The notes below the pieces were generated by a model, which saw only the letters and a program-made list of their open reading frames with translations, was not told the DNA's origin and did not search any database. A stretch of DNA of 64,000 bases from Siniperca chuatsi (taxonomy: Eukaryota > Chordata > Actinopteri > Centrarchiformes > Sinipercidae). Made by a program: the position numbers and the translations under genes. Shown here piece after piece: positions 16,178 through 59,331 of the stretch. Numbering within the stretch: the stretch's first letter is position 1; each line of letters starts with the position of its first letter. Where the stretch lies: NCBI RefSeq assembly GCF_020085105.1, contig NC_058063.1, positions 15,733,262 to 15,797,261 on the forward strand. The letters are read 5' to 3'.

Positions 16178-17029
16178 GGATCCCTGTAGGATCACTGAGG
16201 CCAGACATCTTTCAACTCACTTACACTTCAGCCCAAATATAGACCTATAACATATTAAGTGTATACAGTTTAATAGGTGTAGCTTCAGCATTTATGCTAA
16301 CAATGGGGATGGTTTTAGTCACAAGCAAAGAGTGTGCAGATCTCTTAGATCTAAAAGATAGTCATTTTTAAAAGTGCAATTTGTTAATGCAAGTTTAAAA
16401 AGAGGCTAATTAACACATTTTTGTACCATATCAAACATTTTGACAGTTAAAGGGCAACTGTTTTATGATAAAGAATCAGTTCAACTCAAATCTATGATTA
16501 GTAGTGTAAGTACAGTGAGTTTGGCTGTCTTCGAAATCACTCCTTCATTTAATCATTCACTACTCCCTATATAATAAGACCCTTTATAGTTTACTCTATA
16601 GTGAGCAGTAAACTGAGATTTCAGACACTAATAAATCATCGTTATTTTGGATCATCACTGAGAATTGTCATATCCCCCAGACTGTTAATTTTCACATCTG
16701 TAAAACGCAGTGCACTGCATTGTGGCATTTTGGCCATTGACGCTGCTTTTGTTGTTCAGTTGTGGAATTTTTGAGGGCACTATGTAGTGTCTAAATTTCA
16801 CACTCAGAATTCAGAAACAAATAAAATGGCAGAGAGTAAATATAGGGCACTATAGAGTAAATAGGTGCGAGATGTCGGACACAGCCTGTTTATTTTAACG
16901 CTGCATTAATCAAAATCAGAATTACTCCAAAGCTGAAAGACACACACAGTCCTGATATATTAATGTCTTATGAAGTCAATAGGGCTAACATGTTAGCAAA
17001 AATTGCCTCCTTACAAGTCCAACAGACAC

Positions 17030-17475
17030 AGAGCAACATTATCAACCCACCTGTTTTCTGGTGTTCTGATGTATTTAAGTCTAATATTCACTCTCCTTTT
17101 AGTTTAAGTCTCCACCAACTCCTGAGAAAAATATCTGGGTCAATATTTGCTAAGTGTTCAATTTTCTTCACCAGCTAGTTGCTAACTTTGTCTGTCTGCC
17201 GTTTGGTGCCAGGTAGGTTTTTTGCAATGGATTTATCAGAGCTGGGTTTCCTGAAAATGGCTTCCTGCAGCTGCTAGAATAAGGGTTGATTGGGGCAGTG
17301 AGACTGAACAAAAAAGCAATTGTGCCATAAAACCGAAACAATGAGCCAAAAGAGGCTAAAAAGTGCAACAGAACTGCAGAGTTGGGTGATAATTCTCTGT
17401 GGATGTGAGATATGAGCGACCCATTTGATGATATGTTTAATTTAATATAGAAAATATTGATTAATGCAGCTTCAA
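17030..17475 (+). repeat. Dispersed repeat R1, copy 1
   Basis: It contains CTCCACCAACTCCTGAG, TTGCTAACTTTGTCTGTCTG, AAACAATGAGCC, AGAGGCTAAAAAG, GAGTTGGGTGATAATT and ATATTGATTAATGCAGCTT in this order. The same order of words is found at 28262-28545 and 41620-42075, on the same strand. I recognise it as a family frequent in percomorph fish. There is no coding capacity, so it is probably a non-autonomous transposon. Confidence 0.75.
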
Positions 17476-17479
17476 CTTA

Positions 17480-18140
17480 ATTTTCTAAATTTTCTCCCAC
17501 TATGCAACTATTAAACTGAAGTGTTAATGTTTCTGCTTGAGTACCGTAAAGATCTCTTTCCACCTCTATATATCAGTATACAAAATTTGTTTCTTCCCAT
17601 TTTTTCTTTGTACAAGAACAAATGCAAATATCAACTAAATAAAAGATTCCCTATAAGTGTGTGTTTATGTGAGTCAGTGGTGATAATTGGTTGTCTTCTT
17701 GTCATCTTTACTTCATGAGCAACAAAGTCTAAAACTTCACAGACACCATCAATGATTCAACAAATTTTATAAGATTGGTAGTAAACTCAAAATCAGACAG
17801 AAAATGAATCGTTAACTGTTTGAAAAGCCAGAAACAGTACATCTTGTAATCTAAAAAACAAAAGTGCAACAGTAAAACATCCTCATTCCTAGAGGAATTA
17901 CCCTGCAGGTAGCCAAGTAGCTAAAGTTACGTTTGGGCCGAAAACCCTGACCCAGTTTTGACTTTTTTTCACTTAAACTTTAAAAACTGAAGATTTACAT
18001 GTATATTTATGCTCAAATTTACAATTTTCATTTGGATTTTACTAAATCTCAAAGATGCTGTTACATACTGTATAACTATAACTTTAAGTTAACATACTTG
18101 TAAACATCACAAACAATCAAAAGCTTATTTTTTTACTTTA
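17480..18140 (+). repeat. 3' flank of the PARP14-like unit, duplicated at 28550-29190
   Basis: Beyond repeat R1, this segment continues to match 28550-29190. Examples are TGAAGTGTTAATGTTTCTGC against TGAAGTTTAAATGTTTCTAC, GATAATTGGTTGTCTTCTTG against GATAATTGGTTTTCATCTTG, and TGATTCAACAAATTTT against TGATTCAACAACTTTT. The match continues after R1 ends, so it marks a duplicated segment and not only a shared transposon. Confidence 0.75.
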
Positions 18141-18149
18141 TTCTTAAGA

Positions 18150-18620
18150 CTAGAGGTGGAAGTAACGAATTACATTTACTCTCTTTAATGGAACAAAGTT
18201 TTTTTTTGTGTATTTTTTTTTTAATCTGCAATTTTATTTGTACTTACTTTTGATCTACAGTATTGTACTTTGTGCTACATTTCAAGTCTCATCCGTTACA
18301 GAGTAAAAACAATAGTCACAAGAAAAAGTCCGGATAAACCGTGTGAGAGAATGGAACAAAAGAAAGGAGCCAAATCAGCATCTGCAGCAGAGAAAAAGCT
18401 GCTGGTGTGTCTGGGGCTGCAGGAGGGCAGAGCCCGAGAGAGCTCCATGTCCAGAGAGGTGACACTCTGCACTCAGCTGACTCTGGAAAACATACATGTT
18501 CAGTGCCGGGGGGTGTGGGGGATGCAGTCGCGACCAGGCCTGGCTTAGCAGTTTACAACAATGCAATATTAAAAAGAACGTCATTATGGGTTAGCATAGT
18601 TAGCATAGTTAAAAAAAGGT
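18150..18620. repeat. Probable non-autonomous DNA transposon
   Basis: It starts with GAGGTGGAAGTAACGAATTA and contains CATCCGTTACAGAGTAAAAAC and CACAAGAAAAAGTCCGG. I recognise these as parts of a common fish MITE family, probably hAT-like. The ends are uncertain. Just after it, 18621-18669 holds a 25-base unit (TGCATCTACCTTAATTAATT plus ACTGG) in near-tandem duplicate. Confidence 0.5.
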
Positions 18621-19317
18621 TGCATCTACCTTAATTAATTACTGGTGCATCTACCTTAATTAATTACTGGTTTAATGCACCACCTGGCGAGCACGCTAAT
18701 TGACCCATATCACATATAACACACCCACGACCTTGCCTGACCAACAGGTGCACGCAGGGTCTGGCTAACATGCTAAATGCTAAAACGCTCATGGTGGATC
18801 CTCCAACGGTGACTTTGCGTTCACTATGAAACTTCTATCATAAGTTAGGCCTTTCTGCTGTTTGTGACAATAATCCCTGATGTGACTGCAGAGACTCTTT
18901 CAGATCAAAGTTTTTGAATTTGAGGCATGCACTGGTTATATTAAGCTTTGAGAATGAACGAACAGAGAACTTGAACAACGACAGGTGAGTACAACAACAA
19001 ACTCACTGACGGATGGAGAACGTCAACAACATGGCGTTGTGTGTGTGGTGTGTGTGTGCGCACAACATGTTGTGCAAAAACTGTGCAGCCCTCTTTTTGC
19101 TTTAATATGTGTGTTTGGGGCTGCAGCCGCTGTGGATTTTTTATTGTTAAAACAGCTCAGTTTATTGAATTTACTGTTGGTTTGCACATGAGGGCATCTG
19201 TGATGTGTATACATTTTTGTAGCCTAAATGTGTTCTTTGATCTAATAGGTCCATCATATAACATCTTCATCATATACAATTTTTTCTGTACATACCATGT
19301 AATACATCACTTTTCCC

Positions 19318-22300
19318 TCACTTGAAGGTGATGAGGTAGTCTGGGTATGCTTGGTTATCATGGAACACAACATACATGTTGGGGTTGTTTATTCTATCCA
19401 CCACACTGTCGTAGCGGTCATGGGGCCGCTGGTCACTGCGTGGCGGAGGAACCTTCATGTTGTTTTGGCCCAGAGTGTAGATGCCAGTCAGGACTCGGGC
19501 CACAAACATTAACTGAGAACCATCAGCAGCTGGCTTGGAGTAGGTGGGGTTGGCTGAGTAGCTGGCGTCTACAGCAAAGTAGGTACCATGACCAAATGCA
19601 GTTGCTGAGAAAAATAGGAAATAGGGAATTAACAACAAGTCAATACCTAAACAACAGTGCCTTCCTAAATGATCAATATGATTGCTTCAGAAACTATTCA
19701 TATGAGTTTTACTAACTAAAACTACTTGGTTAGGATTGAGGAAAGATAATCAGAAACCAATGTTGACCGTTGTTAGGAGACAAGGTGCAAAATGTGGTTA
19801 CTGGTGTAAACAACAGACACTTTGTATTCGGCAGTTTCTAAAACCTGAAGAGATTGCTGGTCAAGAAAATGTAAACGGGTCGTTTTAAGCCTTTGAAGAA
19901 ATGACCAATACTGTCAATTAAAGGGAAAGGAAAAGAGGTAAAAGGAAAACAGGTCCTTCTTTTATCTGAAATTTCCAGGAAGTGATGCTTTTTAAACAGA
20001 GGCAAAAACAGTGATTTGTTCTGAATAAATAAAATGTAAATGCAGACGTCATTGTTGCATCATTTTTGGCCAGACCCTACAATGCTGAAGCAATGATTAC
20101 TTATTACTGTGAATTGGTCCAAAAGATCTTTACCATTTTGCCCAGCAAAGCGTCTGTTGAACCCAGTTTTCATGATGGAGTCACAGTTGTCCTGGGTCGT
20201 CCCATGGTACAGAAGCTTTTCACCTGCTCCACCTTCCTGTATGTTCCTATCAGTAATGTGCTTCTTCTGTACTTCATAGGCACGTCGGAGATGAACATTC
20301 TGCAAGCGCTCAATCTATCAAGAAAACAACAATAGTGAGCTGCCAAATTTGCCTTGGAAGGATGGAAACATTTTGACTCTATAATATATTTAAAGTAAAA
20401 TGTGAGGGATACCCTCTCATAAAAAATTCCATTCATCTAGATGAAAGCTATTAAGCTATCATAGATCTAAACTGGGAGGTGCCAAAATTTAATTTTGTGT
20501 ACTCCATGTCTAAAGACAATGAAATGTCTTTTCCAGTAAAAGCTCCCCACCTTCATTACAGTCTTGGAGACAGTTCGTTTGAAGGCCTCCTTCACTGTCC
20601 GGTACTCTGCAGAGGAAGGCTGCAGTGCAACCACTTTTAAAACTTCACCCGCAGCCATGTTGTCCCAGTACAGGGGGAGAGGGAAGTCTGAAAAAAGGAC
20701 AAAATGACTGGGAAAATGTCAGATATTAAGAGTAAATGTGTTTTGTTTCCAAATTTTCCCTTGCTGTAGGCAGAGAAGCAGAATTTTATTTGGTTAAATG
20801 AGGCAAATCTATAAGGTCTTAAATACAGAGAACGGGACCTTTTTCTCTATTGTTTCATTTTGTGATTTACAGAAAATCTTTCATGGAGCAGCTTGAAGTT
20901 ATTGCTTAAGTTTGGTATTTAATGGGATTGAGTGTTACAATGAAATCAAAACAAAACCCCTTACGTTCTTACTTTTAACTAGAGCCCAACCAATACATTG
21001 GCATACATCAATATCAGGTTTTGACAGATGTGCAAAGACATTGCAAAGCAGCACACTGCAGAAATAAATGTTGTACTGGCAGCATTTTCTAACTCCATAT
21101 GCTGATGAAGATTAAGTGATATGATCGAAAGCTCCAGAGCAGCTGCTAAATGGATTATGTGGTGAAAGTTTTGTCGACTACAGTTTCCAAGGATGATCTT
21201 TGAATTATTATTTTTATTTTATCTTATGTAAAATAATGTGTTTTAGTAATGTTTAGTGTATAAAAATGAACTGTTTTGTTGTATTTACTGTTTCTTCTGA
21301 TTATAATGTTCAAATGTAAAAAATCTTCACCACAAAATGTTTGTTTGTGTTATGATTTAATACATAACAACAATTATGTTATTTTGATTTTTATTATTTT
21401 GTTGCCTAGTATCAATATTGCTTTCGGTCTCAAACTCCAGTATCAGTCAGACTAATTTTGTAACATCACTCATCTAGAACCACCTTCTCACCTGGCAGAT
21501 TTACAAGTCGTTTCAGCATCGCCGTCTGTCCAGTTACCTCTCTTGTGGCCTCCAATCTCTGTGGATCTACACTCCACAGGATGCCCAGTGCGTCCGCTAT
21601 CCCTCCTGCTATATCATTATTTTCCAGGTTGTGATTGGATGTTTTGGGGAGTCTCTCCCAGTTGCCGTTCGGTCCCAGGATGCACCATGCCACACGAGTG
21701 TACAAATCCTCCTCCTCCCTGACTCTCACCTCTCTTCTGAGGGACCCATGCAGAGAGACATTAATCATCTGCCTCACCTGGTTGACCCCATCTTTTAACC
21801 CACTAACTGTTAAGCTGCCCTGGCCGGACTGGTCCTTCTGCATGTACAGACCCTCGGTCTCCACCAGCTGCTTCAGATCCTCCACGTCGTCCTGGGTGAG
21901 GCATGCCATCTCCTCCTTTTTGAAGGTTTGAGTAGAGCACTGAGCCTGATACAGATTCTTCAGTTTTGTCTTGGCATCATCAACATCCTTTCTGGAAAGA
22001 CCCAGGAACAGGAAGACGGACTGTTGACTTGTGTAGCTGGTAGGGAGGATGCTATGGTCTGCGCTCAGAGTCGAAGGGGGTTGTTGTTGATATTGTTGCT
22101 GTACATGAGGCCACTGAGGCATTGACACTATAAGGTAGATCAAATGATGAATATCAGTGAAAATTCCTAATAATATAAGATAATTCTGATAAAAAAGAGC
22201 AACCACAAAAGAAGAAAATTCTGTTCTCACCTCTGTTGATTACAGCAGTGGAATACATTTGCATTGCTTCCTTTTTAAACGCCAAGAAGACATTGATCTT

Positions 22301-25300
22301 AAACAAGACAAGGCGGATGTTGGTGAGACAGTAGAGGGGAGTGGACGACGTGGCAGCCTTGACACCTCGGAGGATGGCACCTGCCACGACACCAGGGTCC
22401 AACCCACCAGTTCCTGCACAAATGGTTTTACTGGAAGAATTAAACTGACACTGACTTGAACTACAAAATGAACATTTAGGTGTATGTGTGTGATTTTATA
22501 TTGAACATCTAAAAAGTCTTACAAAATACTTACCAGCACAGATGGCAGGAATGGCCACGGACTTGAATCCAAATGCTTCACAATGTTCAATGATGCGACA
22601 CACCAGTTGTTCAATGATACCTGCATCCCTTTCTCCACACACATGTAAAATGGCTTCACAGAAGAATGATCCAGACTGGGATACAAAAACTTCTCCTCGC
22701 TTCACTTTTGCTACACAAAACACAAGAAAGACAAGATGAGTAAGAAGCTGTTATGTGTGTTTTGCTTGAACATGTCTTGCTGGTCCTTTTTTCTCACCTG
22801 CTTTTAGTTCAGCCTCCACCTCTGGTCCAGCAATGGTTAAGATGTCTTTGCACACACCATCTGTAGAATAAATATGATATTTATTGTAGAACAAGACAAG
22901 ACTACGAGTCTACAGCCATGCTAACAGCTCTGTGAGGCTGTACTTAGGCACAGTGGTGCATTGAGCTAAATGCTAATGTCAGCATGCTAACATGCTCTCA
23001 CTGGCAATGCTAACATGTTGATGTTGAACACGTAAAATGTTTACCATCCATGTTTTGCATGTTAGCATGCTAACATTTGCTACTAGCACTTAACACAAAG
23101 TACAGCTGAGGCTGATGGGAATGTCAGTTGTGCAAAGACACAGAAAAAATTAAGGGATCACCAACATTATAACAATTCATCCTCAGGGGAACATGAATGT
23201 GTATACCAAATTTCATGGCAATCAATATAATAGTTGTCGAAACATTTTAGAAAAAAACACTTCTGTCAACCTTATGGTGGCCCTATATGAAAAGTCAAGG
23301 GCTCAACAAAGTCATTAGTATTCATCATCTAGGAACCATGAACGCTTTTACCAAATGTTGTACCAATCCGTCGAGTAGATGTTGCGATATTTTACAGAAT
23401 AAGTGAAAACTTTGACCTGCTACTAACACTAGATGAAAAGTAAAAAAGTAAGGGGACCACCAAAGTCATTAGGATTCACCCTCTGGGCACCATGAATGTC
23501 TGTATCAAATTTCATGACAATCCATCTGATAGTTGTTGAGATATTTCAGTCTGGAACAAAGTCATGAACCTACCATCCCTAGAGCCACACCGCTAACGTG
23601 GCTACAAATAATTCTGCAGTTACAACATGGTCTTCTGCTCACTAGGACATCTGGCCTTTTTAGGCATCCTCAGCTACAGCAGCTCTCACTCACCGTTCTG
23701 AAAATTTGTGAAGTCAGTCGTGTTCACCACAGCATCTGTAATCTCATTAGTGATGTCACCAAACACCAGCTGTAGTTTAATCCCTCCTCCTACTGTCATT
23801 GTGATGTCATCAAGGTCACTGGTGAGGGACCTGAAGATTGCTAATAGGAAGAACATCACAACATGTTGTATATTTGTCTCATATTTAATCTGATAATTGA
23901 GAATGCCAATGGAAATTAATTGCTAATAAATAAACACTTGAAAAAATGTATTAGTGGTGCAGACTCCTTACTGTATTTGTAATTAACAGTTACAAGTTCA
24001 AAGTAGTCTGAGCAGCTGTCTAGTTTACCTTGGCCTCCCTGGTTCATATTTAAGCTAAGGTGCCTGTGGACATCATGGTAGCACTGTAAATCAAAAAGCC
24101 AGTATTAAACACTTTCTCATCAATAAATCCTGCATGCATGCATCTTTCAAACCAGTTGTTCAAGTGTTGATAGTCACCTCCTCAGAGTTAGGATAGCCTG
24201 GTTTAATGACGATGTGGATGGTTGAGAGAGACCCAGAGGACGCAGATAATCCAAACTGGTGAATGTTCTCAGTCAGGACTTGAATGGCTTCTCTCAGCGG
24301 GTATTTTAAAACAATTCCATGTCCGATAACTGGAAAGGCCACTGAGCACAAACGCTGCTGTACACAGAGGTCTAAACACTTCTTCAGCCCATTACCAAGT
24401 GCCTACAAAACCAGAATCAGACTTTTTTCAAAAGTTTCCACCTACATTGCACATAGCTCTAAAATGTGTGAAGGAAGCTAGAGTTTTGTAGAGCTGAACT
24501 TTATTAGACAGAGTAAAATAACTCTTAAAAATGCATCTTTTACAATACACAGTTATACAAAGTTCCATGTTCAAAAGACTAGCCCATACAGTTAAATCTT
24601 GAATCAATAAGCTAGTTAGCTTGCTTGTTTACCATCTAAAGGCCTGAGTATGCCTCAAACAAAGTCCTTGTTGGATCGTTGAAACCCCCTCCCCCCATAC
24701 CTTTCCAACGTTGGAAGTGGGAGGGGTGGCGTCCGACAGCTTTTGTAACTTTCCAAAACTGACAATTCATGAATCCACTTTATGCAGCATTTGGCCATGT
24801 GTGTAGAGGTGAGAAAGTAGGCAGGATTTGAACTTCTCTCTCAAGCTTCTTTTGTCATTCTTCTCACAACTACTTCAGGTACTTTTTATGCATACGAACA
24901 AGCACAGCACCATGAATGCCTTTGAGGAGAAACTTTAAATGTGGCCATGCAGAACAGCTATGATCACTTTGCCTTTAGACATGGTCGGACAACACTTCGT
25001 ATAAACTACTTTGTTTCAAGCATACCACTGCCTTAAGATCACAAATGTCATAGTCATTCTTTTTGGATTCAATCACTGAGGTTTCAGTCAACCAATAAAA
25101 TTTCTGTCTTAAGATTGTGCCTGAAGAAAACCGGCAGAAATTATTATATATCAAAATCCTCAAAAGTAATCATCAAGATTTGTGCATTACTGATTTTGTT
25201 TGCCATTAACATTGCATTTTCTGTCTGTGTCTAATTCCTGGCGCTTAAATGCAAAAACAATATTTCAATTGTTCTACTGTGAAGTCCACTACAATGGTGT

Positions 25301-27890
25301 TATGTCAGTAAGTGGACCTTGAATTTGAACTCATCCTTTGCCTACACCCATAGTGTTTGAATCCACCATGTATTTCATTTTACCTGCACACTCTGCCCTC
25401 TGACTCCATCCCATGGGAAGCACTCAATGAAGAAGAGCTTGGAGCAGCCCAGAGATGGAGGCCCATCAACCTGCAGAACATCACCAGGGGCGAGGGTACA
25501 ACTGGCTGCCATCAAGTTAAACTTTGACTTGATTGCATTCCCTGCTTTATTCAACAGACATTTACCAATTTTTGTAGAATTTAGCTTCCCGTTGTGCATG
25601 GGGACCACCAACACATTCACCTGTAGAAATAATGTGAAATAATATCAGTGTGAGTGTTGCATTAATGCTGTATTAGTTTATGTAAAGTAGAACAGAAATT
25701 GTTGAACCTGCTCATCCACCAAACTGCCAAGCTTGATCTCCAGGCTTGTCTTGTTGACCACAGTGCTCCCAACAGTGCTGTGCCTTCTGGTGATGGAAGG
25801 TCTGGGTGTGATGCTGCTGGGGCTGCTAAAGCTTTGTGATTTATTTTTCACATTTGGGGAGTACAGACCTTGCTGTTCCCTGATAAGGACCTGACAGGAG
25901 CTCTCTACCAGCTCCTTGCTTTCTTTGCCCTCTGCTTGGAAGTACCGCTGAGCCCTTGGTCCATCTAGAACTAGTGTGTCTGATGCCAAACAGGCTAGAG
26001 CTGAGTTTAAGGCCTGCTGGGCCTCCTGGACCAGACAACGGGGGCCAGACACAAGTACAGAAGGATATGGGAAATGCGTGGTTTTGAAGGTCACCTTGGT
26101 CTTCTTCATCCCAATCAGTGCTAAGATTTTATCAAAACAGTCAACCAGTTCAGGATGCGGTAGGTTCATTACTTCTTGTGTCCTGACTTGGTTCATCTGG
26201 TAGTCATGCAGAACCTCTTTCAGTTTGTTCACATTTTGACTGTAGCCCACAAGTCGTACTTTGGTGACTGCTGTTCCACTGGGTCCTGGGATGAAGCTGA
26301 CGTCCACTCTGCGCTCTTGACAGTTTGCCTCGTTTTTGGCTTTGATCATGATTTCTTTGACTTTGTCTAGATCTGGACGTGCAGCTGCAGCTCCCTGCAG
26401 CTTCACAGTGGCCACACTCAGGTCTCTCTGCACTGCTGCCAGAGCCTCATCCAGGGCATCAGAGGACAAACTGGACAGGACCAGGTCTGACCCCACCTCT
26501 AGGGAAACAGGATTTCTGAGGCTCTGCTGGAAGCGAGCCTGGTACTTGGAGATAGCGCCACTGGATGTTATGAAGGTCACTAAAACTGTGGGGAGATTAA
26601 CTTTCTTTTCTTTTACCTTTTTGATCAGTTCATCAAGTTTTGTAGCTCCTGACTGCACCTCCTTGTTAGGGCCTTCCAAGATGATCATAGCGTTACCTCT
26701 GTGGATTTTAACATCTGGGCAATGTGCACGCATTTCTCGACTAAACTCTTCTTCTACCAGTTTAAACTGCTTCTCCACAATTGGTAATTCCTTCTGGGTT
26801 GGCAGGCTCTTTTCCAGGATTGCAATCCTCTCCTTCACAGCCTCAACTTCTCCTACAACCACAGCGTAACCGCTCTTTGTATACACTTTGATATCATCGG
26901 TCACAAAGGAGCGGTCATGCAGTAGGATTTTTACTTGTTTTGGCTCAACTACATGATAGCAGAGGTATTTCTCAGTAAGACAGATGAAGACCTGATCTAC
27001 CTGTATGTTCCATTTCTCTGCAGCACTGCCAAAGGCTCCTCCAGGCCCCTTCTCAATATCTCCCCTAACAACTGCCTCCTCTTCATCAAAATTGAACTCC
27101 ACTGTGCAGCCGATAGAAGAGAGTTGCTTCTGTAAGACTTTGGATGCTTTAGGGCTGTCTTTAAGGTAATACAGGAGGAAAATATCTATCCTGAAAATCT
27201 TCTCAAGGCCTTTTGTGTTTGTTTTTGTGAATATCTAAAGAAGAAAAGCAATATCAAACAAATTAATTAATTTATAGTAAATCTAATAAGAAAACTATAT
27301 TTAATAATCTATAAACTCAACTTTTGTGATGTCACAACAGCCAGCACTACAATGTACACAATATTTTGATTATTGGATGTTGACTCCGCTCAGAAATTCC
27401 CCCAAAATGTTCAGGGCATGTCATTTGGCTCTGACGTTTGTGTTTACCATAATCATGAAAGCGTCAGCAAGATTTCTAAAGGGCAATATTTGCTTACCTG
27501 TGAATGACTAGGGTCAGGGTTCTGTGGCGAACTGGTTCGGCTCACGGTCAGACGTAATTCTCCACAAGGAAGGGAGATGGTGTGAAACTTCCTCTGCAAA
27601 ACCCTTTCCTGGTCTGTAAAAAAACAAAGTCCAAGGTCCCAAAAATATCCTACATTTAAACTAAAACCAAAAAGTATATTCTACTTATAACTCATTTTAG
27701 CCTAATGGGATTCCTTACCTTCTTTTTCTTTGAAACTGATTTTATAGGTGTTACCTCCAGCCTTTTCAATCAGCCCACAATCACCTCCCCCAGAATCTCG
27801 TCTTTTTTGAAAGTATCTCCTGATCTTCTCCTTCTCTCTGTCTGCCAGATCTTTCGTCTCAAAGAACAACGGATGTTGGTATTCATCCAT
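19318..27890 (-). CDS. parp14: PARP14-like mono-ADP-ribosyltransferase (macro-WWE-ART)
   Basis: Interferon-type mono-ADP-ribosyltransferase. Exons in transcript order: 27890-27719, 27613-27498, 27234-25708, 25620-25384, 24402-24178, 24083-24029, 23840-23694, 22860-22798, 22710-22534, 22413-22231, 22127-21492, 20687-20551, 20314-20134, 19604-19318. They join in frame to 1380 aa. An N-terminal part encoded by exons 1-3 (KH/RRM-like by family) is followed by macro-like domains at about 600-760 and 795-970, a Gln-rich linker, a WWE domain at about 1105-1180 and an ART domain at 1180-1380. The ART domain has His1262 (LYHGTT) and Tyr1294 (GHGTYFA), and ends AYPDYLITFK. The third catalytic position appears hydrophobic and not Glu, which in this family means mono- rather than poly-ADP-ribosylation. 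Human PARP14 is about 1800 aa with three macro domains, so this copy is shorter. An ISRE lies about 100 bases upstream. It may be one of the fish PARP14-related tandem paralogues and not a strict orthologue. Confidence 0.9.
20978..21460. repeat. Possible MITE in a PARP14-like intron
   Basis: The left end AGAGCCCAACCAATACATTGG and the right end CAGTATCAGTCAGACTAA resemble mutated inverted ends of a fish element whose ends read like TAGAGCCCGACCGATA. The interior is AT-rich and non-coding. The family is recognised only by impression. Confidence 0.4.
22912..23604 (+). mobile_element. Non-autonomous DNA element R2, copy in a PARP14-like intron
   Basis: It begins TACAGCCATGCTAAC and ends CGCTAACGTGGCTA, imperfect inverted ends. 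The interior contains GTTAGCATGCTAACATTTGC, AGTACAGCTGAGGCTGATGG and CACCAAAGTCATTAGGATTC. A second copy in the same order and strand lies at 38610-39128, ending in GCTAGCATGGCTA-like sequence, and a partial inverted copy lies at 11575-11990. There is no transposase. Confidence 0.75.
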
Positions 27891-27991
27891 TTTACAATTC
27901 TGAACTTACAGGAAAACTTTTAAAAAGTATGGCACTTCTTAGTATGCCACCGTGCCTCTTTAGTGAGCGGTGTGCGGAAGTGCTTTTATTT

Positions 27992-28007
27992 ACTTTCACT
28001 TTCACTT
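27992..28007 (-). promoter_or_regulatory. ISRE / IRF element of the PARP14-like promoter
   Basis: The minus strand reads AAGTGAAAGTGAAAGT, three GAAA/GTGA repeats that fit the IRF-binding pattern GAAANNGAAANN. It lies about 102 bases upstream of the ATG at 27890, where interferon-stimulated genes often carry such a site. The function is inferred from the motif. Confidence 0.7.
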
Positions 28008-28261
28008 ACTGCAAGCGGACACACCCAATTACAAAAAGAGTATATTTTTAACTTTAAGTGGTTAATCTTGTTGTGCAGGTACCCTGAGTTACTGTAATGT
28101 AATGATGATGATAACATTGATGATATTGTTTTTATATATCATGTTGAAATAAGGATAATCATTCCAGTGAGTATGATGACACATTTCACACATTTTGGTT
28201 TCACATGATAAAAATAAAAAACAATCCAAACAACATCACACAGGAGTTAATAATGGAAAAC

Positions 28262-28545
28262 TAACATTCGACAGTGGGTTTATCAGAGCTTGTTTGAAGA
28301 AAACAGCTGCCTGCTGCTGCTGAAAAATGGGGTACATGAGAGCGGTGAGACTGAAGCAAAACAGTAAATGAGCCTTAAAACTAAAACAATGAGCTGAAAG
28401 AGGCTAAAAAGCTCCACAGAGTTGCAGAGATATTTCTGTGTGTTCATCACTACAAGCCACCACACTCACGTTCCATGCAGTCATTGGATTCAGTGTTACA
28501 TTTCAAAAATATTTGATAAATGCAGCTTTAACTTTTCTAATCGAT
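28262..28545 (+). repeat. Dispersed repeat R1, copy 2 (shorter)
   Basis: It shares with copy 1 the words GGTTTATCAGAGCT, AGCGGTGAGACTGAA, AAACAATGAGCTGAAAGAGG, CTAAAAAGCTCCACAGA and AAATGCAGCTTTAACTT. It starts right after the promoter of the living PARP14-like gene, at the junction between the two duplicated units. Confidence 0.7.
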
Positions 28546-28549
28546 CCCC

Positions 28550-30130
28550 TCTATGTAACTTACAATTTAACTGAAGTTTAAATGTTTCTACTTGAGTAAA
28601 ATGCTCTTCCTACCTCCTTATATACATTTTTGTGAAATAAGTTTCTTTCCTTTTTCTTCTTTTTAGACAGAATGCAAACCAAATAAAGAATTGAAAACTG
28701 CACAATTATTTGACAATACACTATGTTAATCTGATAATTGGTTTTCATCTTGCCTTTAAAACCTGAACAACAAGGAATATAAATTCATAGTGACAGCATC
28801 CTTGATTCAACAACTTTTGAATTGGTATAAAAGACATGCCAACAAATTCATCACACGTAATCAATCATTAACAAAAATAGGCCCACTTGATAACCCTTCA
28901 GGCACCCAAGCACCTTAAATTAAGTTTCAAAGGAAAAGGAATTCTGAAACATACTAAAAATACTGCAGATTTACTTGTACGTTAGTGATAGTTCACACAT
29001 ACATTCACCTGCGTCTCTATTCTCAATTCAAATTGTATTTTAATTATACAGTACAAACAAACTGTAACATATAACCATAACTGCAGACACTCCTGAAAAC
29101 ACAACTGTCTAAAACTCAAATTACCTTTTGCTTTTTTCTTTAAGACTTTCTGTATTTCTACACTTTTTAAACTAAATTTTTACAGCACAGATTTGTGAAT
29201 CCTTGTGCCCTGCCTCTGTCTTGGACATTTTTAATAACTGATCTGACCAGGTACTTTCTGGGACTTTCTGTTTTGCTGTTGCTATGCAAGTGTTGGTATC
29301 ATGTCAAACACCGTAAGGTTTCCAAAGCTCAGTGTTATACTGTTAACCTTAATGTTCCTGGAGACCCCTGGCCCTCAAAAAGCATACACCTTAAAACTTC
29401 ATGACTTTTTCTGCTTTTATGAGTTTGAACTGATGTTGTTTTAGAAGACTGCTAAAGAAAATGATGCATTACTTCTGTAAAATATGGCTAAAAGAAGATG
29501 GATTTTCATCTGCTCTGTTTCTGTAATTTGTGCTGACAGTACTTTTTACACAGCACTACCTCTCCCAAATCCAAAAACAAACATACACTAAGTAGTATCA
29601 CTACATAAGATAACATACATTTATTTGTCTGTGAATGACTTTTTGGCAAACAAATGAAGGATTTTTATGTATTACGTTACATGCTTACTTATAGCCTATA
29701 ATATATAATAATAATCTTCTTCTTCTCTCTGCCAGTAAGCTCTTTTACTTCAAAGAACAATGGATGTGGATATTCATCCATTTTACCTCAAATTCTGAAT
29801 TTGAAGGAAAGGTTTAAGTCCTAGTATGGCTGCTGTACATCATCCAGCTCCTCAGTGAAAGCTGAGCTCTCAAGTGCTTTAATTTAGTTTCAGTTTCTAG
29901 TACTGTAAGCTTATTTTTCCATTCACTTATTTACAAAGCACACACTCAAAACAAAACAGAAATAGTCCAGCTATAAATGAGGAGTTTCCCTGCTAAGTTT
30001 CATTGTACATGAATTGTGATGTAATGATGATGATTAAATTGATGATGAAGTCTTTATACTGTATATAATGGTAACCTAAGAATGATTATTCCACCAATAA
30101 TGAGGATGACATTTCATTTTTTGTTTGTTT
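28550..30130 (-). pseudogene. Remnant of a second tandem PARP14-like gene
   Basis: 28550-29190 matches the 3' flank of the living gene (17480-18140). 29689-29781 on the minus strand matches the start of exon 1. It opens MDEYPHPLFFEVKEL, against MDEYQHPLFFETKDL in the living gene, stays recognisable for about 22 codons, then degenerates and hits a stop at codon 31. 29782-30130 matches the living promoter (27891-28230), including GTAATGATGATGAT and GATTATTCCA words. Nothing of the macro, WWE or ART exons is left between the two matched parts. The unit is therefore a tandem duplicate with a large internal deletion. Sequence similarity is moderate, which suggests the event is old. Confidence 0.75.
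29886..29899 (+). promoter_or_regulatory. ISRE retained in the ghost promoter
   Basis: AGTTTCAGTTTCTA fits the ISRE consensus AGTTTCNNTTTC. It sits at the position homologous to the ISRE of the living copy: both are preceded by AGTGCTTT and followed by ACTG(C/T)AAGC. Activity is inferred only. Confidence 0.6.
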
Positions 30131-30134
30131 CAGG

Positions 30135-30295
30135 CATTTTATGTCTTTATTTGCTGGGAGATAGTAGAGAGATGACAGGAAATGAGGGGAGAGAGAAAGA
30201 CGGGGAATTATATACGTCCCAAGCTGGATGGGAACGAGCACGATGCGGTTCATGGTCAGTGTCCTAACCCATAGGCCACCAGGGTGTGTGACAGC
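30135..30295. repeat. Fish interspersed repeat with ACCAGGG end
   Basis: It contains TTTATTTGCTGGGAGATAG, GATGACAGGAAATGAGGGG and CCATAGGCCACCAGGGTG. I recognise this order of words from a common fish repeat that ends in a '...CCACCAGGGCGCC' motif. The class is uncertain. Confidence 0.45.
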
Positions 30296-30654
30296 AATGG
30301 TTTCTGATAGTTCCTCATTTTCACCTGTTGTGATGTCACACCATAGAAAAATAAAAGCAAAACAAAAGAGAAAAGCACCATCACACAAGAAGTTCTGTGA
30401 AACTGACATGCTGGGACATTACCACACCAAACCGCTAGATGTCCTACTGAGACTAAAAACTCTACTGATGCACTGACAACAATAAAGCAGCAGCTTTTAG
30501 CCTGCCAAGACAAGACCATTCCAATGTTCAGTGTTGCACTACGAGTGCAGTGTTTTTTGTGTTGTTTTTGCCAGTGGTGAACAATAGGTCTTCCCTTCCA
30601 CGGAAACAATACGAACTCAGTCATATCTTGTGCTTCCCACTCCCCCACCCCCTT

Positions 30655-30880
30655 ATTTCTCTCTCTGAAAACTTAACACGGCAGCGGCGGAATGGCCGCC
30701 CACCATTGAGTCTGATTCTGCCCGAGGTTTCTGCCTCTTAAAGGAAGTTTTTTTTCTTGCCACTCTCGCCATTTGCTTGCTTATGGTGGGATTTGTTGGG
30801 TCTCTGTAAATAAGATTGTAAAGAGTACAGTCTAGACCTGCTCTATAGGAAAAGTGCAATGAGATATGAGGGCCTCCACC
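30655..30880. repeat. Common teleost repeat (AGGAAGTTTTTTTTCTTGCC family)
   Basis: The words GCGGAATGGCCGCCCACC, TTTCTGCCTCTTAAAGGAAG, GGTGGGATTTGTTGGGTCTC and TAGACCTGCTCTATAGG occur in the order known from a very frequent fish repeat. It is non-coding. Confidence 0.65.
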
Positions 30881-30984
30881 TGAGCGATGTAGATGGTATA
30901 TATATATATACAGATATAGATGGGAGTATACAAGGGAGAGAATAAACTGGGCCGAGTTAAAGCTTAAGAGAAAGAATGAAGTGG

Positions 30985-31285
30985 AAACAACTGGGCTGAC
31001 CACAGGGCACTTGGGGGATTCTTGGGTTAACCAAAGGGGCATCTGGACTGACCAGAGGTTTGTTTGTTTGCAATTGGGTTGACCAGATGGACACTGGGGC
31101 AAATGAAAACAGCACTTGGGGACCACTTAGGCTAAACAGAGAGCAATTGGGATGTTCCAAGAGGCACTTGGGTTGACCAGAGGTAATTTGGACTTACCAG
31201 AGCGAAGACTTAGGCTGACTAGAGCAGCATGTGAGGTGACCTGTTGGTGGGCACTTGGGCCAACCAGAGGAGCATTTAGGGGGAA
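30985..31285 (+). repeat. Degenerate minisatellite, unit about 25-35 bases
   Basis: The phrase GCACTTGGGTTGACCAGAGG recurs about ten times with changes, for example GGCATCTGGACTGACCAGAGG, GGACACTGGGGCAAA, GGCACTTGGGTTGACCAGAGG, TAATTTGGACTTACCAGAG and GGGCACTTGGGCCAACCAGAGG. The open frames read through it on the minus strand are Ser/Pro/Leu-rich repeats and not a gene. Confidence 0.75.
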
Positions 31286-34200
31286 TCTCCTCCATGATAA
31301 ATGCTGCATAATTAATTCCTCATGTAGATTTAGATCAGAATGTTATATGTCTGCAGGGACAGTGAATTGAGCATAAACTGGGATCGTTTGCGACAAGTTG
31401 TTGAGAAACAACTCACTGGGTCACTGGGTTTGGCCGGCCTCTCTTAGAGAAGTTCTTTGGGATTGTGCAGTAACATTTCCCTTTTTTTCTGTCTCACGCA
31501 ACACACTTGTAGCTGTGTTTCTGAGAGTAAAAACTGATAAGACGGTGTAGTCCCTCATTCGTCCAGGAGTGTTCTATCGTAGAAAAGGTTTCAGTCGTAG
31601 TCATCTGGACACTGTTTTCAGATTTAAGAAGTTTCGGCTTGATACGATACTAGAACTGATCCAAAACAAGCAGCAAGATGTGATTTGTTTATAGTTCACT
31701 TGAACGATTTTGAGTACTATGTTGTGAAACATTATATTATTATACTTCATGTTTTAAAACGAGATTAGAAACATCCTGATGGTGGACCAAGCTGAACCAT
31801 AAACTTGGCGCTTAATTTGTAAATGACAAGATGAATACTGAAAGGGTGGCTTTAGAGATTTTCAAAAATATATTTTTCTGCTTTTAGCATCACAGATGGA
31901 GCAAAACAAACTAAAACTATTTGTGTACTAGGAGTAAGTTGGGTGAACAGACCCTTTAATATTCCCTGTGTATAAAACTATATTTTTAATTTCAAAATGT
32001 GGGTGTGATAGCCATAATTTACCAGTTTCAGAGAAGTTAAATATTTATGTTCCGGACTATTTACATGTATGACGGGTGATCAGTGTTATGAGTATTCATC
32101 AAAAGACATTACAGGATTAGGCTACACCAAGCACGGTCAAATTTTTATTTTTTAATGTCAAAACCCACAATCTCTTCAAAGTGGAGAACTGTGTTAAACA
32201 AAAATGCTAGTGTTAACAAATGCAAGTTGCTCATTTTCTTCACATTTCTCCTTGTGGGAAATGTTTATTTTTAATCAGTATTACCAGTGATGGTACCATC
32301 ATCAGTGTTATTATGCTGGAATTGAGCATTTTGCGATCTGTGTGTGTTAACAGTAAATGACGTGACACCCACGAGAAAAAAGACAATAAACAAGTAAAAA
32401 GACTTACATTTTTTGAAGCTCTGCGTGAGTTTTCAGAGTAAAATGTTAAAGCCACTAGAATTAGGACATTTCTGACTTTGGCTCCCCCCAGTTGTAGTAT
32501 CAGAAAAGACACAGTAGCTGATCTGACCTGTAGACACTGGAATGAATGGGTGGAAAGCAACACATTGACTGCACCCATTTTTACAGGGGTAATGTCACTT
32601 TCCTACTGACCAAAATTTCTGCCATCAAAGTAACTTGAAAGATGTTATTATCTCATAAACATTCTACACATAGAGCCTTTAACTTTTTATTTTTATCAAG
32701 GTTGCAGTAATTCCTACAGAATGTAACAAAGCATTTAGCTTAACACGAGACTTTCTTTTCTGATGTGTGTATTGGACACTGGCACAGAATTTTTCTTATA
32801 CAATGAACAAAAATGATAAAACATAATGTCACCATTGTACATCAGTTTCTCGATCCACTGTGATCTTCAAACACCAGGCCAAGCACAACACGCTAGAATA
32901 TTGTCTAACATCATCAAAATCCAACACACTGCTGTTGCAAATTCTGACCTGCCAGACTATTTCTTGGTTGGTACTAAGTGCCAAGCAACCAGCAGAGACT
33001 CCAGAAAATAAGCCAGCTGTTTCCCCCTGATTCCAGTCTTTAAGCTAGGCTAAGCTAACCAGCTGCTCGTGGTAGCTTCATATTGAATAAACAGACATTA
33101 AAGTAGTATCAATCTTCTCATCTAACTCTTGGCAAGAAAACGAATAAGCATATTTCTCAAAATGTTGCACTGTTTCTTTAAAGGAAAATTCTTTCAATTC
33201 TTGTTCTCATAATTGTGGCCATTCTGAATATGGGTCATGCTAACTTTGCACTCATCACCTCCAGGTATATAAGGAGCAGTGCGAGCCTACCAAAGCTTAC
33301 CAAATAAGCTTCAATGTTATATAAATCATTTCAAATGCTTGTATCAGAGTTAAACTGAAAGTAAACGCAGAAATCAGTAACCTGGATTAGCTTTTGTAGC
33401 TAACTACATTGAGATGCACACAGTCACATGCATTTGTTATAACTGCTGTTTTAAAAATGCAAATTACATAATGTTAAATGTTCATCTTTTAGTAGAAAGG
33501 CTGTTGTTGTTGTTCTGCTCTTCTCCTATAATTATGATCACGATCAAGGTATACACAACTCAAAGCCTGAATATCCTATGTATTCATGCTTTTTTGCTTT
33601 TGAAGACAAGCAATAGTTCCCATTATGAGTAAAGATTAAAAAAAAACAAACATGACTTGTTGCAAGTCATGTTGCAACACACACAATCTTGGTGTTGCCT
33701 CTATCAGTGATGTCTTCCTTGAGAAACTATCTTGCAGGTTAAAGGAATGTGGTGGGTGTAAGTTTGATGTAAGCTCACAGTTCACTGTGAGCTTACATCA
33801 AACTGATACTTTTCAAACTGATACTTTTTATCATTTAAAGTGGAAAATGTAGTATAATGTAGGGGAGAACCATGTGTCATGACGTATGAGGTGAATGCAC
33901 CATTAATGAACTACTTCGGAATACACTTTGATTACCACTGCGTGTCGTAACACACTTAAGACATATAATATAACAAATAATTATAAAATTACATAACAAA
34001 TGATCATTGTGTGAATTCTCTCAACTGAATGAGATGATTGAACAGCAACAGAGAAGCATAAAGAGCATGCAATGTGTCCAGAACATGGTCTAATGTTAGA
34101 CGGATACATTTTTTGGCAGGGATACTATTGATACTAGTACTGATATTCAAAACAAGACTTAGTATTGGCTTGAAAAAGGGTGATTTTAATTTTAGTCCAG

Positions 34201-38442: not shown

Positions 38443-38600
38443 ATCAAATCAAGTTTATTGTCACATACACAATCATACACAGTACAACGCACAGTGAAAT
38501 TCGTTCACCTCCGCACACAGACTAAGGTGCATATGATTCAATAACCCGAATACTTATAGACACCACAGTCAATATTAAAACTAAAGAATGGAGGCAGAAA
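38443..38600 (-). mobile_element. LINE 3' end
   Basis: AATCAAATCAAGTTTATTGT, then CACATACAC and GTACAACGCACAGTGAAATT, is a phrase typical of the 3' end of fish LINE elements read in reverse. It is separated from the reverse-transcriptase part (39137-39790) by the R2 element. Confidence 0.5.
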
Positions 38601-38609
38601 CTAAGAGTC

Positions 38610-39128
38610 TACAGCCATGTCAGTGGCTCTGTGATGCTGTACTAAGCTTAATGCTAACACCAGATTGCTAACATGCTCACAGTGGCAATGCTAACATGCT
38701 GATGTTAAGCAGGTAAAATGTTTAACATGTTCACTAACTTAGTTAAGTGGGTTAGCATGCTAACATTTGCTGAACACAAAGTACAGCTGAGGCTGATGGG
38801 AATGGCATTAGTTTGATAAGTGTTGTTGGACAAATTTAGATCGGATGATGGCATTTGATGAAAAGTCAACAAAGTGATTACAATTCATCCTGAGAGGGAT
38901 GTGTACCAAATTTCCCTTCAAGAAATTTCACTCAAAACCACAAATGTAAACCTGCTGATGGTGCTAGAAGAAAAGTCAGGGGGTCACCAAAGTCATTAGG
39001 ATTTATCCTCTGGGGACCATGGATGTCTGTACAAATTTTCATGTGAATCCCTTCAACAGTTGTTAAGATGCCTCAGTCAGGACCATAGTGGTGGACCAAC
39101 ATTGCTGAGCCATGCCACTAGCATGGCT
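38610..39128 (+). mobile_element. Non-autonomous DNA element R2, copy nested in a LINE
   Basis: It starts ACAGCCATGTCAGTGGCTC and ends CCACTAGCATGGCTA, with imperfect inverted ends. The interior parallels 22912-23604: GGTTAGCATGCTAACATTTG, AGTACAGCTGAGGCTGATGG and GTCACCAAAGTCATTAGG. It lies between the 3' tail and the coding part of a minus-strand LINE. Confidence 0.75.
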
Positions 39129-39136
39129 AAAAAATT

Positions 39137-39790
39137 TTAAATACTGTGGGAATGCAGGCATGATGAGCCAGCAGGCTGTTCCTGCTGGTCCTTGAATGGA
39201 GAGTCCTGTAGCGCCTCACAGAGGGGAGGAGGGCAAACAGTCTGAGAGGTGTCCCTGTGATTTGCTTGTGCTGGACAGCCTCTGTGGTGAGCAGTGGAGT
39301 ACCAGTGATGCTCCGCAGTGCTTTCCAGTCCAAGACAGAGCCGTTGCCATATGATACTGTGATGCAGCTGGTAAAGATGCTCTCGATGGTGCAGCGGTAG
39401 AAGATGGACTTTCTTCAGCCTCCTCAGGAAGAAGAGATGCTGGTGAGCCATCTTGATCAGTGTTGAAGTGTTGCCAAGCTCACCGAGTTTGGTGATCAGT
39501 TTGGAGGGGATGATGGTGTTGAATGCTGAACTGAAGTCAATGAACGGCATTCTCACATAGGTGTTACTGTTGTCCAAGTGGGAGAGGGCAGAGTGTAGCG
39601 CTGTGGAGATGGCGTCCTCCGTACACCTGTTCTGGCAGTTGGCGAATTGGAGGGGGTCCAGTGTGGGCGGTGGGCAGGTTTTGAATGAAAGGGAGGGGAA
39701 CAGTCCAAGGGCTCACTGTCACTCCAAACGTCCTATGCCAAAGGTCAGCTGAGCCGCAGATTGCTTGCTTCCTCAACAGTCAGTCGTCAA
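39137..39790 (-). pseudogene. Reverse transcriptase fragment of a Rex1/L2-like LINE
   Basis: The minus strand encodes [40 protein letters not shown] and LITKLGELG. These are conserved reverse-transcriptase words of fish non-LTR retrotransposons. The frame then jumps to FFLRRLKK and, in another frame, to [18 protein letters not shown] and later [19 protein letters not shown], the usual C-terminal region. The stretch that should hold the FADD/YADD catalytic motif is missing, and several frame changes are present, so the copy is dead. Confidence 0.8.
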
Positions 39791-41619
39791 CTTTACAGAT
39801 GGAAATCACATGAGTCGTCGTGAAACTCAAGTCAGCATTCAGACAGAGCTGCCTGGAGAGGACCTTGGTCTGCACACAGGGATAAAACACAAGAATGAAT
39901 GCCAGCAATGTTTACTGCACGTTGCTGATAAGAAGACCACAGAGTGACAGCAACACCCAAACACACCTGCACTCAATCAGCCCACCACAGTCATCATCCT
40001 GTCATACTTTCTGAATAAGGAGAAGTAACAAAGTGACAAATCTATCATCACTGACACCCTCAATTGCAACAACGCTGATAAAAATTGTACTTCTGCCCAA
40101 TCTTCACTTGATCAGTTTGATAATAACTCGATCAGCCTCAGTTGTTCTTACTGGAATATATGTTTATTTCAACAACACAAATCTGACCTTCAGTACAGAG
40201 AGCACACATAAGTACAGTCTGCACTAAAAACTTTAAGTATCAATACATTCTCTCAGCATAATAAGTTCTTGTATAGTCACGCAATGAGGGAGGTGTAGAC
40301 AACATACAACCACAGGCCAAGACCAGTTCTCATCCATGCTTATCATGGGATCCAGAACATCCCCAAGGTCTTCAACTTAACTACATCGCCCGACACCCAG
40401 AGTCTTCACACATAAAGTAAGTCAGCAAAGATGCTGAGGCCACTTAGGTTACCTAACCATGACACTCACAAAATTATACATTTCTTCATGTCCCATTAAT
40501 CTTTCTACCACAGCTCTCAAACAGGTTTCTATACAGCCCCCGTATCCCTCCATCCCCTTGCTTTACTTTGGCCTAATCAATATGAATAACAAAGTCACAT
40601 TTTATCAAAAGACACAAACAAGCTGGTAAATTAGAAGAGAACTACAAGAAATATTACATATACTGATTTCATGTTTTCTATTCTTTCAGCCTTTTGGGAT
40701 TCAAGTAGTGACTTCCATCACTGAACAGTTAAGGGCAGAACAAACAGAAAAAGGATTTTTTAAAACCAGAAATCACATTGTCATAGGTATTAAGGTATCT
40801 ACATTTGTAATTAATTACCGTATTAAATCAATACAGTGTATACAGTATGTATAATATTATGGTCATTCTGTGTTTTGAGTTGTAAGAAGTCCCCTCAAGG
40901 TTGTTCTTCAAAAGATTTGCTAAGTCATACTGTAATACATCATTTCAATTCTTGCAGTCATGTGTCATTGAGGCTTTGCATGACTTTTACCCCACATTTA
41001 TGACCCAAATGTCTGATAAAGACACATGCCTTCAATCATAAGGGAGTAATATTTCTCAAGTCAAGTCTGAAAGCGCTTTGTTGTCAAAAATATTATTTCA
41101 GTTGTTGTCTTTGTCACGAATTCTATTATATATCAGAAAAATTTAAAAATCTAAGAGAGATAGAAACTTGTATACTTATACTTATAAACTTATATTTAGC
41201 GTCAATTAATCCGTTTAACTTCAAAACTAATTGATTGAAACAATGTAGATGGCAGTGCTTTTTGGTTTCCTCTTAAAATCCCATCTTTCCATATCAGATG
41301 TTTGGTTTATATCACCAAATGAATATATATACATTTTCCCCAATTTGTTTTTTGTCGCTGCAGATCTTGTACAATGACAACAAATGACACATGACACATG
41401 ACACGTGAAAAGAAAAACTGAAATGTTTTTCATTTTCATTCTTATGTGCAGGATAAAAATTTGGGTATTTTTACACAATGCTCATTGAAAAAATATCAAA
41501 AACAACAACTCATCCGCCAAACTAACAAAAACCTAAAGCTTAAGGCCACAAAACTTCACAACAAGCTAAACATCCAAAACACATTTGGCATATTATTGGC
41601 CTTATAAAGTTGTTAAGGT

Positions 41620-42075
41620 CCAGCAGTTATAGCGCAACATTATCATTCATTTATAGTCATGTTTCTGGCATCAATATGAATGTAAGTCAAATATTCACTC
41701 ACTTTTTAGCTGTTTTGGTCTCCACCAACTCCTGAGGGAAATACCTGACACTTTAGCGGTGAAATGCTGCAATATGTTCACCTGTTAGTCGCTAACTGTG
41801 TTGGTCTGCCATTTGGTGTTTAGCAAGTAGCATACAGAAGTCTATCTGCCAAAAATGACGCTAATGAGAGCGGTGAGAGTGAAAACAGTAAAGTTGCAGG
41901 CCTGAATACCAAAACAATGAGCTGAAAGAAGCTAAAACGCTCCATAGAGCTGAGGGGAACTGCTGAGTTGGGTGATAATTTTCTTGGGAGTTCGCCACTA
42001 TGAGTGACCCCTTTCACATTAGTCATTTGAGCAATTGCTTACATAGAAATATTGATTAATGCTGCTTTAATACCC
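41620..42075 (+). repeat. Dispersed repeat R1, copy 3
   Basis: It has the same ordered words as 17030-17475: AGCGCAACATTATCA, CTCCACCAACTCCTGAGGG, GTCTGCCATTTGGTG, AAACAATGAGCTGAAAG, TGAGTTGGGTGATAATTTTC and ATATTGATTAATGCTGCTTT. It is not accompanied by the flank shared between 17480-18140 and 28550-29190, which shows that R1 is an independent mobile family. Confidence 0.75.
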
Positions 42076-45700: not shown

Positions 45701-45801
45701 GCTTGAACCCTCGGTCTTCCTGGGTGAAGAAGCTGATCCACTTTGTTCTTGAGAGACAACTACATCAGCAGGGACAAGCACTTCCCAAGAATAAAGCATA
45801 A
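42779..45801 (+). CDS. CXC chemokine, CXCL8-like without ELR
   Basis: Secreted chemokine. Coding exons 42779-42833, 44788-44923 and 45672-45801 join in frame to 106 aa. A second Met is next to the first, and the first is taken. The signal peptide is MMKLCILLVFGTLFVVING. The mature chain starts MPPISRDYNTHCRCLQVES. The CXC pair is followed by the IPEGPHC block and GEKVCLNPRSSWVKKLIHF, closest to the CXCL8 subgroup (GPHC, WV at the helix start). The ELR tripeptide that directs neutrophil CXCR1/2 binding is absent; THC precedes the motif, so receptor use cannot be assumed. The helix and tail sit in one last exon, whereas CXCL8-type genes usually have four exons. ATTAAA at 45832-45837 is a likely polyadenylation signal. 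It could be the fish CXCL18/19 or CXCL8-like group; I cannot decide. Confidence 0.85.
43240..43780. repeat. Fish repeat rich in AAGTAAAGTAC motifs, copy 2
   Basis: In intron 1 of the CXCL8-like gene. It begins GGAGGTGGAAGAAGTATTCA and ends CAGTGCACTTAGTTATATTCC. The interior has AAATGTAGTGGAGTAGAAG and ACTCAAGTAAAGTACCTC, the same family as 4070-4490. No transposase is seen. Confidence 0.7.
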
Positions 45802-58842: not shown

Positions 58843-59331
58843 GCTAGATATGTCACAAGGCCTAAGTGGTCACAACAGTACCTGTGACAACTTTTTCACA
58901 TCGTACAACCTGGGACAGGAGCTTCTCAAAAGAAAGCTGACAATGGTTGGAGCAAAAATAGAATAGAAAAGAAAAGGCCTGCGCATTCCTTCAACTTCAT
59001 GTTCACAGACAACACTGCTCTGGTATCTTACATACCAAAAAAAGGAAGAAATGTGTTGCTGATGAGCACTCTACACCGGGATGGAAAAATAAGCAGCCGA
59101 GAGGATTGTAAGCCAGAGGTCATACTTGACTACAATGCCACCAAAGGAGGAGTAGACAATCTCGACAAGCTGCTGGCCTGCTACAGCTGTCAAAGAAGAG
59201 CACTGCGATGGCCACTTGTGATCTTTCATAACATGCTGGATGTCTCAGCCTACTTTTATTTAAGTGGATCTGAATACTTCCTCCACCACTGCTTCAAGTA
59301 TACTGGCACCCCATTATTAAGAATCTTTTGA
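58843..59331 (+). pseudogene. piggyBac transposase C-terminal fragment
   Basis: An upstream frame reads SGHNSTCDNFFTSYNLGQEL and LLKRKLTMVGAK, the piggyBac DDE block containing CDNFFTS. A stop and frame change near 58960 follow. From 58999 the frame reads FMFTDNTALVSYIPKK..., then KPEVILDYNATKGGVDNLDK, ACYSCQRRALRWPLVIFHN and MLDVSAY. These are diagnostic of PGBD/piggyBac transposases, including the DYNxTKGGVD motif with the last catalytic Asp. The N-terminal half is missing, so the copy is dead. Confidence 0.85.

Follow-up and report, generated by a model that had tools for sequence, protein, structure and literature searches.

A stretch of non-coding DNA beside a PARP14-like gene, running from about 28271 to 30411 of the window (the whole 64-kb stretch of DNA analysed, to which all positions refer), is probably the relic of a tandem duplicate of that gene that lost its interior by deletion; we put the probability of this reading at about 0.9. 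Both ends of the duplicated unit were found outside repeats in the expected order and orientation, together with a junction that cuts into the dispersed repeat R1, and the coding sequence that remains is disabled. An ancestral segment of ~11 kb, comprising the right part of R1, the 3' flank, the entire PARP14-like gene, and the ~380 bases preceding its start codon, would have been duplicated in tandem, probably by an illegitimate join and not by a crossover between two R1 copies. The lower-coordinate copy would be the living gene, while the other copy would later have lost ~9.7 kb in a deletion reaching from its 3' flank into exon 1 as far as codon 22, and would have received repeats at 29387-29673 and 30117-30319. 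The remnant, in which exon 1 is disabled and an old promoter persists, would be non-coding and most likely does nothing now. An earlier note on this DNA had proposed that a whole PARP14-like unit was duplicated in tandem and that its interior was deleted; this proposal is well supported by two repeat-free matches, the junction, and an exon 1 of the relic that is nearest to this gene among the relatives examined, and the matches observed earlier are confirmed and sharpened. The features discussed below are as follows (unstranded unless marked).

17225-18145: 3' flank of the living gene, repeated in the relic (17225-17480 is R1; the match is weak beyond 17770)
19318-27890, minus strand: coding span of the living PARP14-like gene (RRM, weak KH-like, two macro matches, PARP catalytic domain)
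27825-27890, minus strand: first 22 codons of living exon 1, common to the relic
27891-28269, minus strand: 5' UTR, promoter, and upstream flank of the living gene, up to the duplication junction
27994-28003, minus strand: GAAANNGAAA motif in the living promoter
28269-28272: tandem-duplication junction (upstream-flank homology ends at ~28269; truncated R1 starts at 28271)
28271-28537: R1 copy in the relic, cut at its left end; R1 is dispersed over many chromosomes
28538-29160: 3' flank of the relic outside R1, collinear with 17481-18145
29161-29386: stretch holding or bordering the putative deletion scar, not significantly similar to any part of the living unit that was tried
29387-29673: second dispersed repeat, inside the relic
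29716-29781, minus strand: exon 1 of the relic, 22 codons
29782-30116, minus strand: 5' UTR and promoter of the relic
29888-29897, minus strand: GAAANNGAAA motif in the relic promoter, at the aligned place
30117-30319: insertion of ~200 bases in the upstream flank of the relic (30128-30276 matches a place in locus L016, 72%)
30320-30411: upstream flank of the relic, collinear with 28185-28269

The living gene and its collinear partner

On the minus strand, 15 of the 16 exon pieces of the living gene were placed, from 27890 down to 19321, most of them with plausible AG/GT ends by eye. The joined exon pieces contain a PARP catalytic domain (PF00644, 98.8 bits, cut-off 26.7), whose nearest solved structures are those of PARP15 (E 5.7e-56) and PARP14 (E 4.7e-52). 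Two stretches match the macrodomain model PF01661 (24.7 and 35 bits, cut-off 22), and no third macrodomain was seen with Pfam; an N-terminal RRM matches PF23222 (56.7 bits, cut-off 27), and two PARP14 KH models match below their cut-offs. The region 21469-22140, where a WWE domain might precede the PARP domain, gave no Pfam match at E 0.01. By its PARP, macro, and N-terminal RRM/KH features, the predicted product would belong to the PARP14-type macroPARPs, and the gene is apparently working. Elsewhere in the window, a transglutaminase gene lies on the plus strand at 8841-14054 (coordinates derived from match positions), with matches to the N-terminal, core, and C-terminal domains over several exons, and a candidate chemokine gene lies on the plus strand at 42780-45742, with a signal-peptide-like first exon, judged by eye, near 42780 and, at about 45685-45742, a weak similarity to the IL8 family (E 0.0023) that stays below the cut-off.

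A self-search of the window at a cut-off of E 1e-8 returned 12 pairs, and all pairs between the living unit and the relic lay on the plus diagonal, as expected of a tandem copy. They include matches outside R1 in the same order and orientation. The strongest pair joined 17225-17768 to 28272-28818 (67% over 582 columns, E 7.6e-34) and included R1 up to ~28537. Beyond R1, the flank 17481-18140 aligned with 28541-29190 with a local score of 114, compared with a best score of 39 in 300 dinucleotide shuffles. The match had originally been drawn from 28550-29190 to 17480-18140, and it stands, with collinearity outside R1 between 28538-29160 and 17481-18145 and its end mended to near 29160.

The strength of the 3'-flank match sits in 17481-17770 (to about 28820 on the relic side), and it weakens farther out. 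Taken as a single piece, 17770-18140 against 28820-29190 was not significant (local score 31 vs. a shuffle maximum of 39; global score 111.0 vs. 115.5). Within 17880-18145, four overlapping comparisons each scored above 500 of 500 simple shuffles, the last of them narrowly (88.5 vs. 88.0); 17770-17900 did not rise above its shuffles, 99 of 500 of which reached its score, and the block 17776-17990, with an identity of 0.709, barely exceeded the shuffled 0.684 ± 0.030.

At the other end of the unit, exon 1 and the promoter paired in the window self-search as 27823-28016 with 29714-29910 (72%, E 3.5e-19), and at a looser cut-off a second promoter pair joined 28093-28188 to 30015-30116 (72.5%). 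The promoter without coding sequence scored 67, compared with a maximum of 31 in 300 dinucleotide shuffles; the block between the two pairs, 28017-28092, was no better than shuffled sequence (identity 0.603 vs. 0.607). Past the insertion, 28185-28269 matched 30320-30411 with a score of 65, reached by 0 of 1000 simple shuffles and by 0 of 298 other window pieces. The similarity to exon 1 and promoter that had been reported for 29689-30130 was thereby recovered as a collinear match at 29713-30116, with the relic extended to 30411.

Contents, decay, and possible activity of the relic

Exon 1 of the relic is identical to living exon 1 at 16 of 22 residues and 53 of 66 bases, with no indel, and runs into an in-frame stop at codon 31 (29689-29691). 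Searches with tblastn found no further exon, in agreement with the earlier statement that only about 22 codons of exon 1 survive. The flanks of the two copies diverge by a K2P distance of 0.27-0.38 per block, which is a low estimate since alignment maximises identity; at the substitution rates of fish, such divergence would correspond to tens of millions of years. Among candidate protein domains in the relic, the lone Pfam match at E ≤1 was MobI (E 0.49), which was set aside as noise, and Rfam returned nothing at gathering score in 16500-31500.

The surviving end of the relic could have been retained as a regulatory element, namely as an upstream promoter or enhancer, inducible by interferon, that the living gene inherited from its dead twin. 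The relic promoter points towards the living gene. The motif GAAANNGAAA, which we take to be of the ISRE or interferon type, occurs at the aligned place in both promoters and 10 times in the 64-kb window. The stricter AGTTTCNNTTTC has a single occurrence in the window, within the relic. The 22 codons have moreover been kept without an indel, and dN/dS comes to 0.16 for the pair of copies (Fisher p 0.005), a ratio drawn from 11 synonymous sites. However, the promoter blocks (74, 60, 78, and 74% identical) are no better conserved than the 3'-flank blocks (70-77%), and by our own arithmetic the chance of keeping the eight fixed bases of the motif at ~25% divergence is about 0.1, such that chance retention would explain the shared GAAANNGAAA. 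Measured against flank K2P instead of the few synonymous sites, dN gives a ratio of about 0.4-0.5, near the expectation for a copy dead since birth, and dN/dS was for these reasons rejected as proof of a long-lived copy. We consider a retained function very improbable and regard the promoter as most likely an inert part of the relic.

Between the 3' flank and exon 1, where an interior of ~9.7 kb would be expected, the relic has 553 bases, about half of which belong to the second dispersed repeat. At a flank identity of 70-77%, the 486-codon exon of the living gene should still be visible, which argues that the interior was deleted and has not merely decayed. A single tblastx piece of 24 residues (21.7 bits), pairing 29380-29451 with 22716-22787, was joined to the exon 1 and promoter pieces by BLAST sum statistics; it lies almost wholly inside the second repeat, and we read it as a chance match. 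With no interior remains detected, two independent partial duplications, one of a 3'-flank piece and one of an exon 1/promoter piece, would also account for the relic, and a whole second gene would then never have been present at this site. Such a history seems very improbable, as two events would have had to hit the right order and the right orientation and to abut the unit boundary at 28269/28271 exactly, whereas one tandem duplication followed by a deletion is simpler.

The duplication junction and the repeats around it

R1 is a repeat of ~480 bases with copies in the window at 17010-17480, 28271-28537, and 41619-42070. A genome search with R1 and the flank behind it, in which 40 of 2767 candidates were scored, listed 42 matches, 39 of which are R1 copies elsewhere. 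None of these 39 passes query position 276, and hence, among the copies scored, the repeat does not include that flank. As 23 of the 27 copies examined (out of the 39 listed elsewhere) extend to the left of the point at which R1 starts in the relic, the relic's R1 is cut there. The upstream flank of the living gene meets this cut end at about 28269/28271, which identifies the place as the duplication junction; four further bases (28270-28273) are added to the upstream-flank alignment after a gap, and they were read as chance or microhomology.

An unequal crossover mediated by R1 predicts a whole hybrid R1 at the junction and another R1 at the right end of the relic. The junction R1 is cut and no R1 lies at the right end, where 30411-31500 had no significant match to 28269-28600, and this route was rejected. 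Because R1 extends leftwards beyond the living unit, is truncated at the junction, and is missing at the right end of the relic, an illegitimate join is the more probable route.

The R1 copies themselves were rejected as proof of common descent, as neither site patterns nor quartets nor trees resolved their relationship. A sister relationship between the R1 copies of the two units was neither supported nor rejected in a tree of 30 rows (p-AU 0.476), the c1-c2 R1 pair ranked 110th of 435 in quartet sharing, and the three-copy site patterns (37, 25, and 35) did not clearly favour sister pairing. The end branches of R1 at the two PARP14-like units are 0.26 and 0.16 against a median of 0.12, among 30 rows picked for likeness to the R1 of the relic. 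Either the duplication must have followed closely after the insertion of R1, or the history of R1 is more complex.

With two dispersed repeats inside it (28271-28537 and 29387-29673) and a piece that recurs in L016 (30128-30276), the relic might be suspected of being a mosaic of dispersed repeats present by coincidence on either side of the gene. This is highly improbable: 28538-29160 and 29713-30116 lie outside those repeats and, in a search of 198 kb of the genome at E 1e-4, paired solely with the living unit, the partner of 30320-30411 outscored every other window piece compared, and one relic piece holds the coding start of the living gene itself. A genome search with 28540-29713, in which 40 of 161 candidates were scored, listed 54 matches, and all 53 located elsewhere fell within query positions 848-1134, that is, in the second dispersed repeat; the known partner 17481-17768 is absent from this list, which leaves uniqueness in the whole genome unproven.

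Other repeats were noted in the window. A repeat family occurs at 22901-23608 (in an intron of the living gene), 38600-39133, and 11590-11806, and a reverse-transcriptase-like ORF (39137-39712) lies near one of its copies. A Tc1-type element at 48159-49496 has transposase domains between inverted repeats at 48159-48222 and 49433-49496, and a plus-strand fragment at 58930-59251, presumably of piggyBac type, matches DDE_Tnp_1_7.

Relatives of the relic and comparison with known systems

A genome search with the large exon (10 of 10 candidates scored) found six PARP14-like loci on the same chromosome as the living gene, and a further one on contig C5. The six loci form a cluster at C22:16563201-16718517 (L040-L045), all on one strand and 0.80-0.96 Mb from the living gene, and five of them lie 14-18 kb apart. 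Their large exon is 31-35% identical to that of the living gene, and the matched portion is free of stops. An exon 1 was located for four of these loci, and none in the stretches fetched upstream of L044 and L045. In ungapped comparisons, which understate the count for one cluster exon 1 that is a codon shorter, the four share 31-36 of 66 bases with living exon 1 and 27-32 of 66 with exon 1 of the relic. Set against the 53 of 66 bases shared by the relic and the living gene, these counts make the latter two the nearest relatives in the set and place the cluster on a different branch. An origin of the relic in the cluster lineage (C22, 16.56-16.72 Mb), brought to mind by this row of loci on the same chromosome, can practically be dismissed, because the exon 1 of the relic is far nearer to that of the living gene than to the four found in the cluster, and nothing matching the promoters of relic and living gene lies in the stretches upstream of the six cluster loci.

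When the window and the 50 kb on each side of it were put through a translated search (E 0.01), no further PARP14-like sequence turned up, two of the ten pieces searched containing 76 N each, and more than two units were accordingly not seen within this range. The earlier idea of an array that contracted to one gene goes further than these results allow: two units are evidenced at this locus, and any contraction was at most from two to one.

A copy count would show one unchanging gene at this locus, while the DNA records a birth and a death, with the junction of the duplication and the bounds of the deletion, and offers a readable case of turnover in an immune-type gene family. As the lone, divergent PARP14-like gene lies 0.8 Mb from a PARP14-like cluster, a single chromosome allows loss to be compared with expansion. 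A literature search at the level of titles and the beginnings of abstracts found no report on this locus or on relics of fish PARP14 copies.

Passages of published studies describe additional PARP14 copies in many fish genomes and repeated gain and loss of PARP14 and PARP15 (PMC4038475), PARP14 duplicates that often lie very near each other on the chromosome (PMC4245714), a salmon PARP14-like gene in which a deletion removes an exon (PMC7560756), and the history of the macroPARPs (PMC10221186). The relic adds a well-resolved case for a family whose gains and losses of copies are already documented; as a trace of the birth and death of a gene, it is clear but ordinary. The cluster at C22:16.56-16.72 Mb resembles the locus as a row of PARP14-like loci carried by the same chromosome; it differs in representing another, very divergent lineage that is not the source of the relic. 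The vertebrate duplications and losses, as far as described in those passages (PMC4038475, PMC4245714), share with it a PARP14-type gene duplicated in place, whereas of one copy here nothing but the two ends is left, and a gene count would miss the event. The PARP15 remnant of the white-cheeked gibbon, in the account given in part of PMC4038475, is likewise a macroPARP copy that has been nearly all deleted, with one exon kept that carries a stop codon; in contrast, PARP15 is a partial duplicate of PARP14, while the relic would descend, as far as can be told, from a whole unit.
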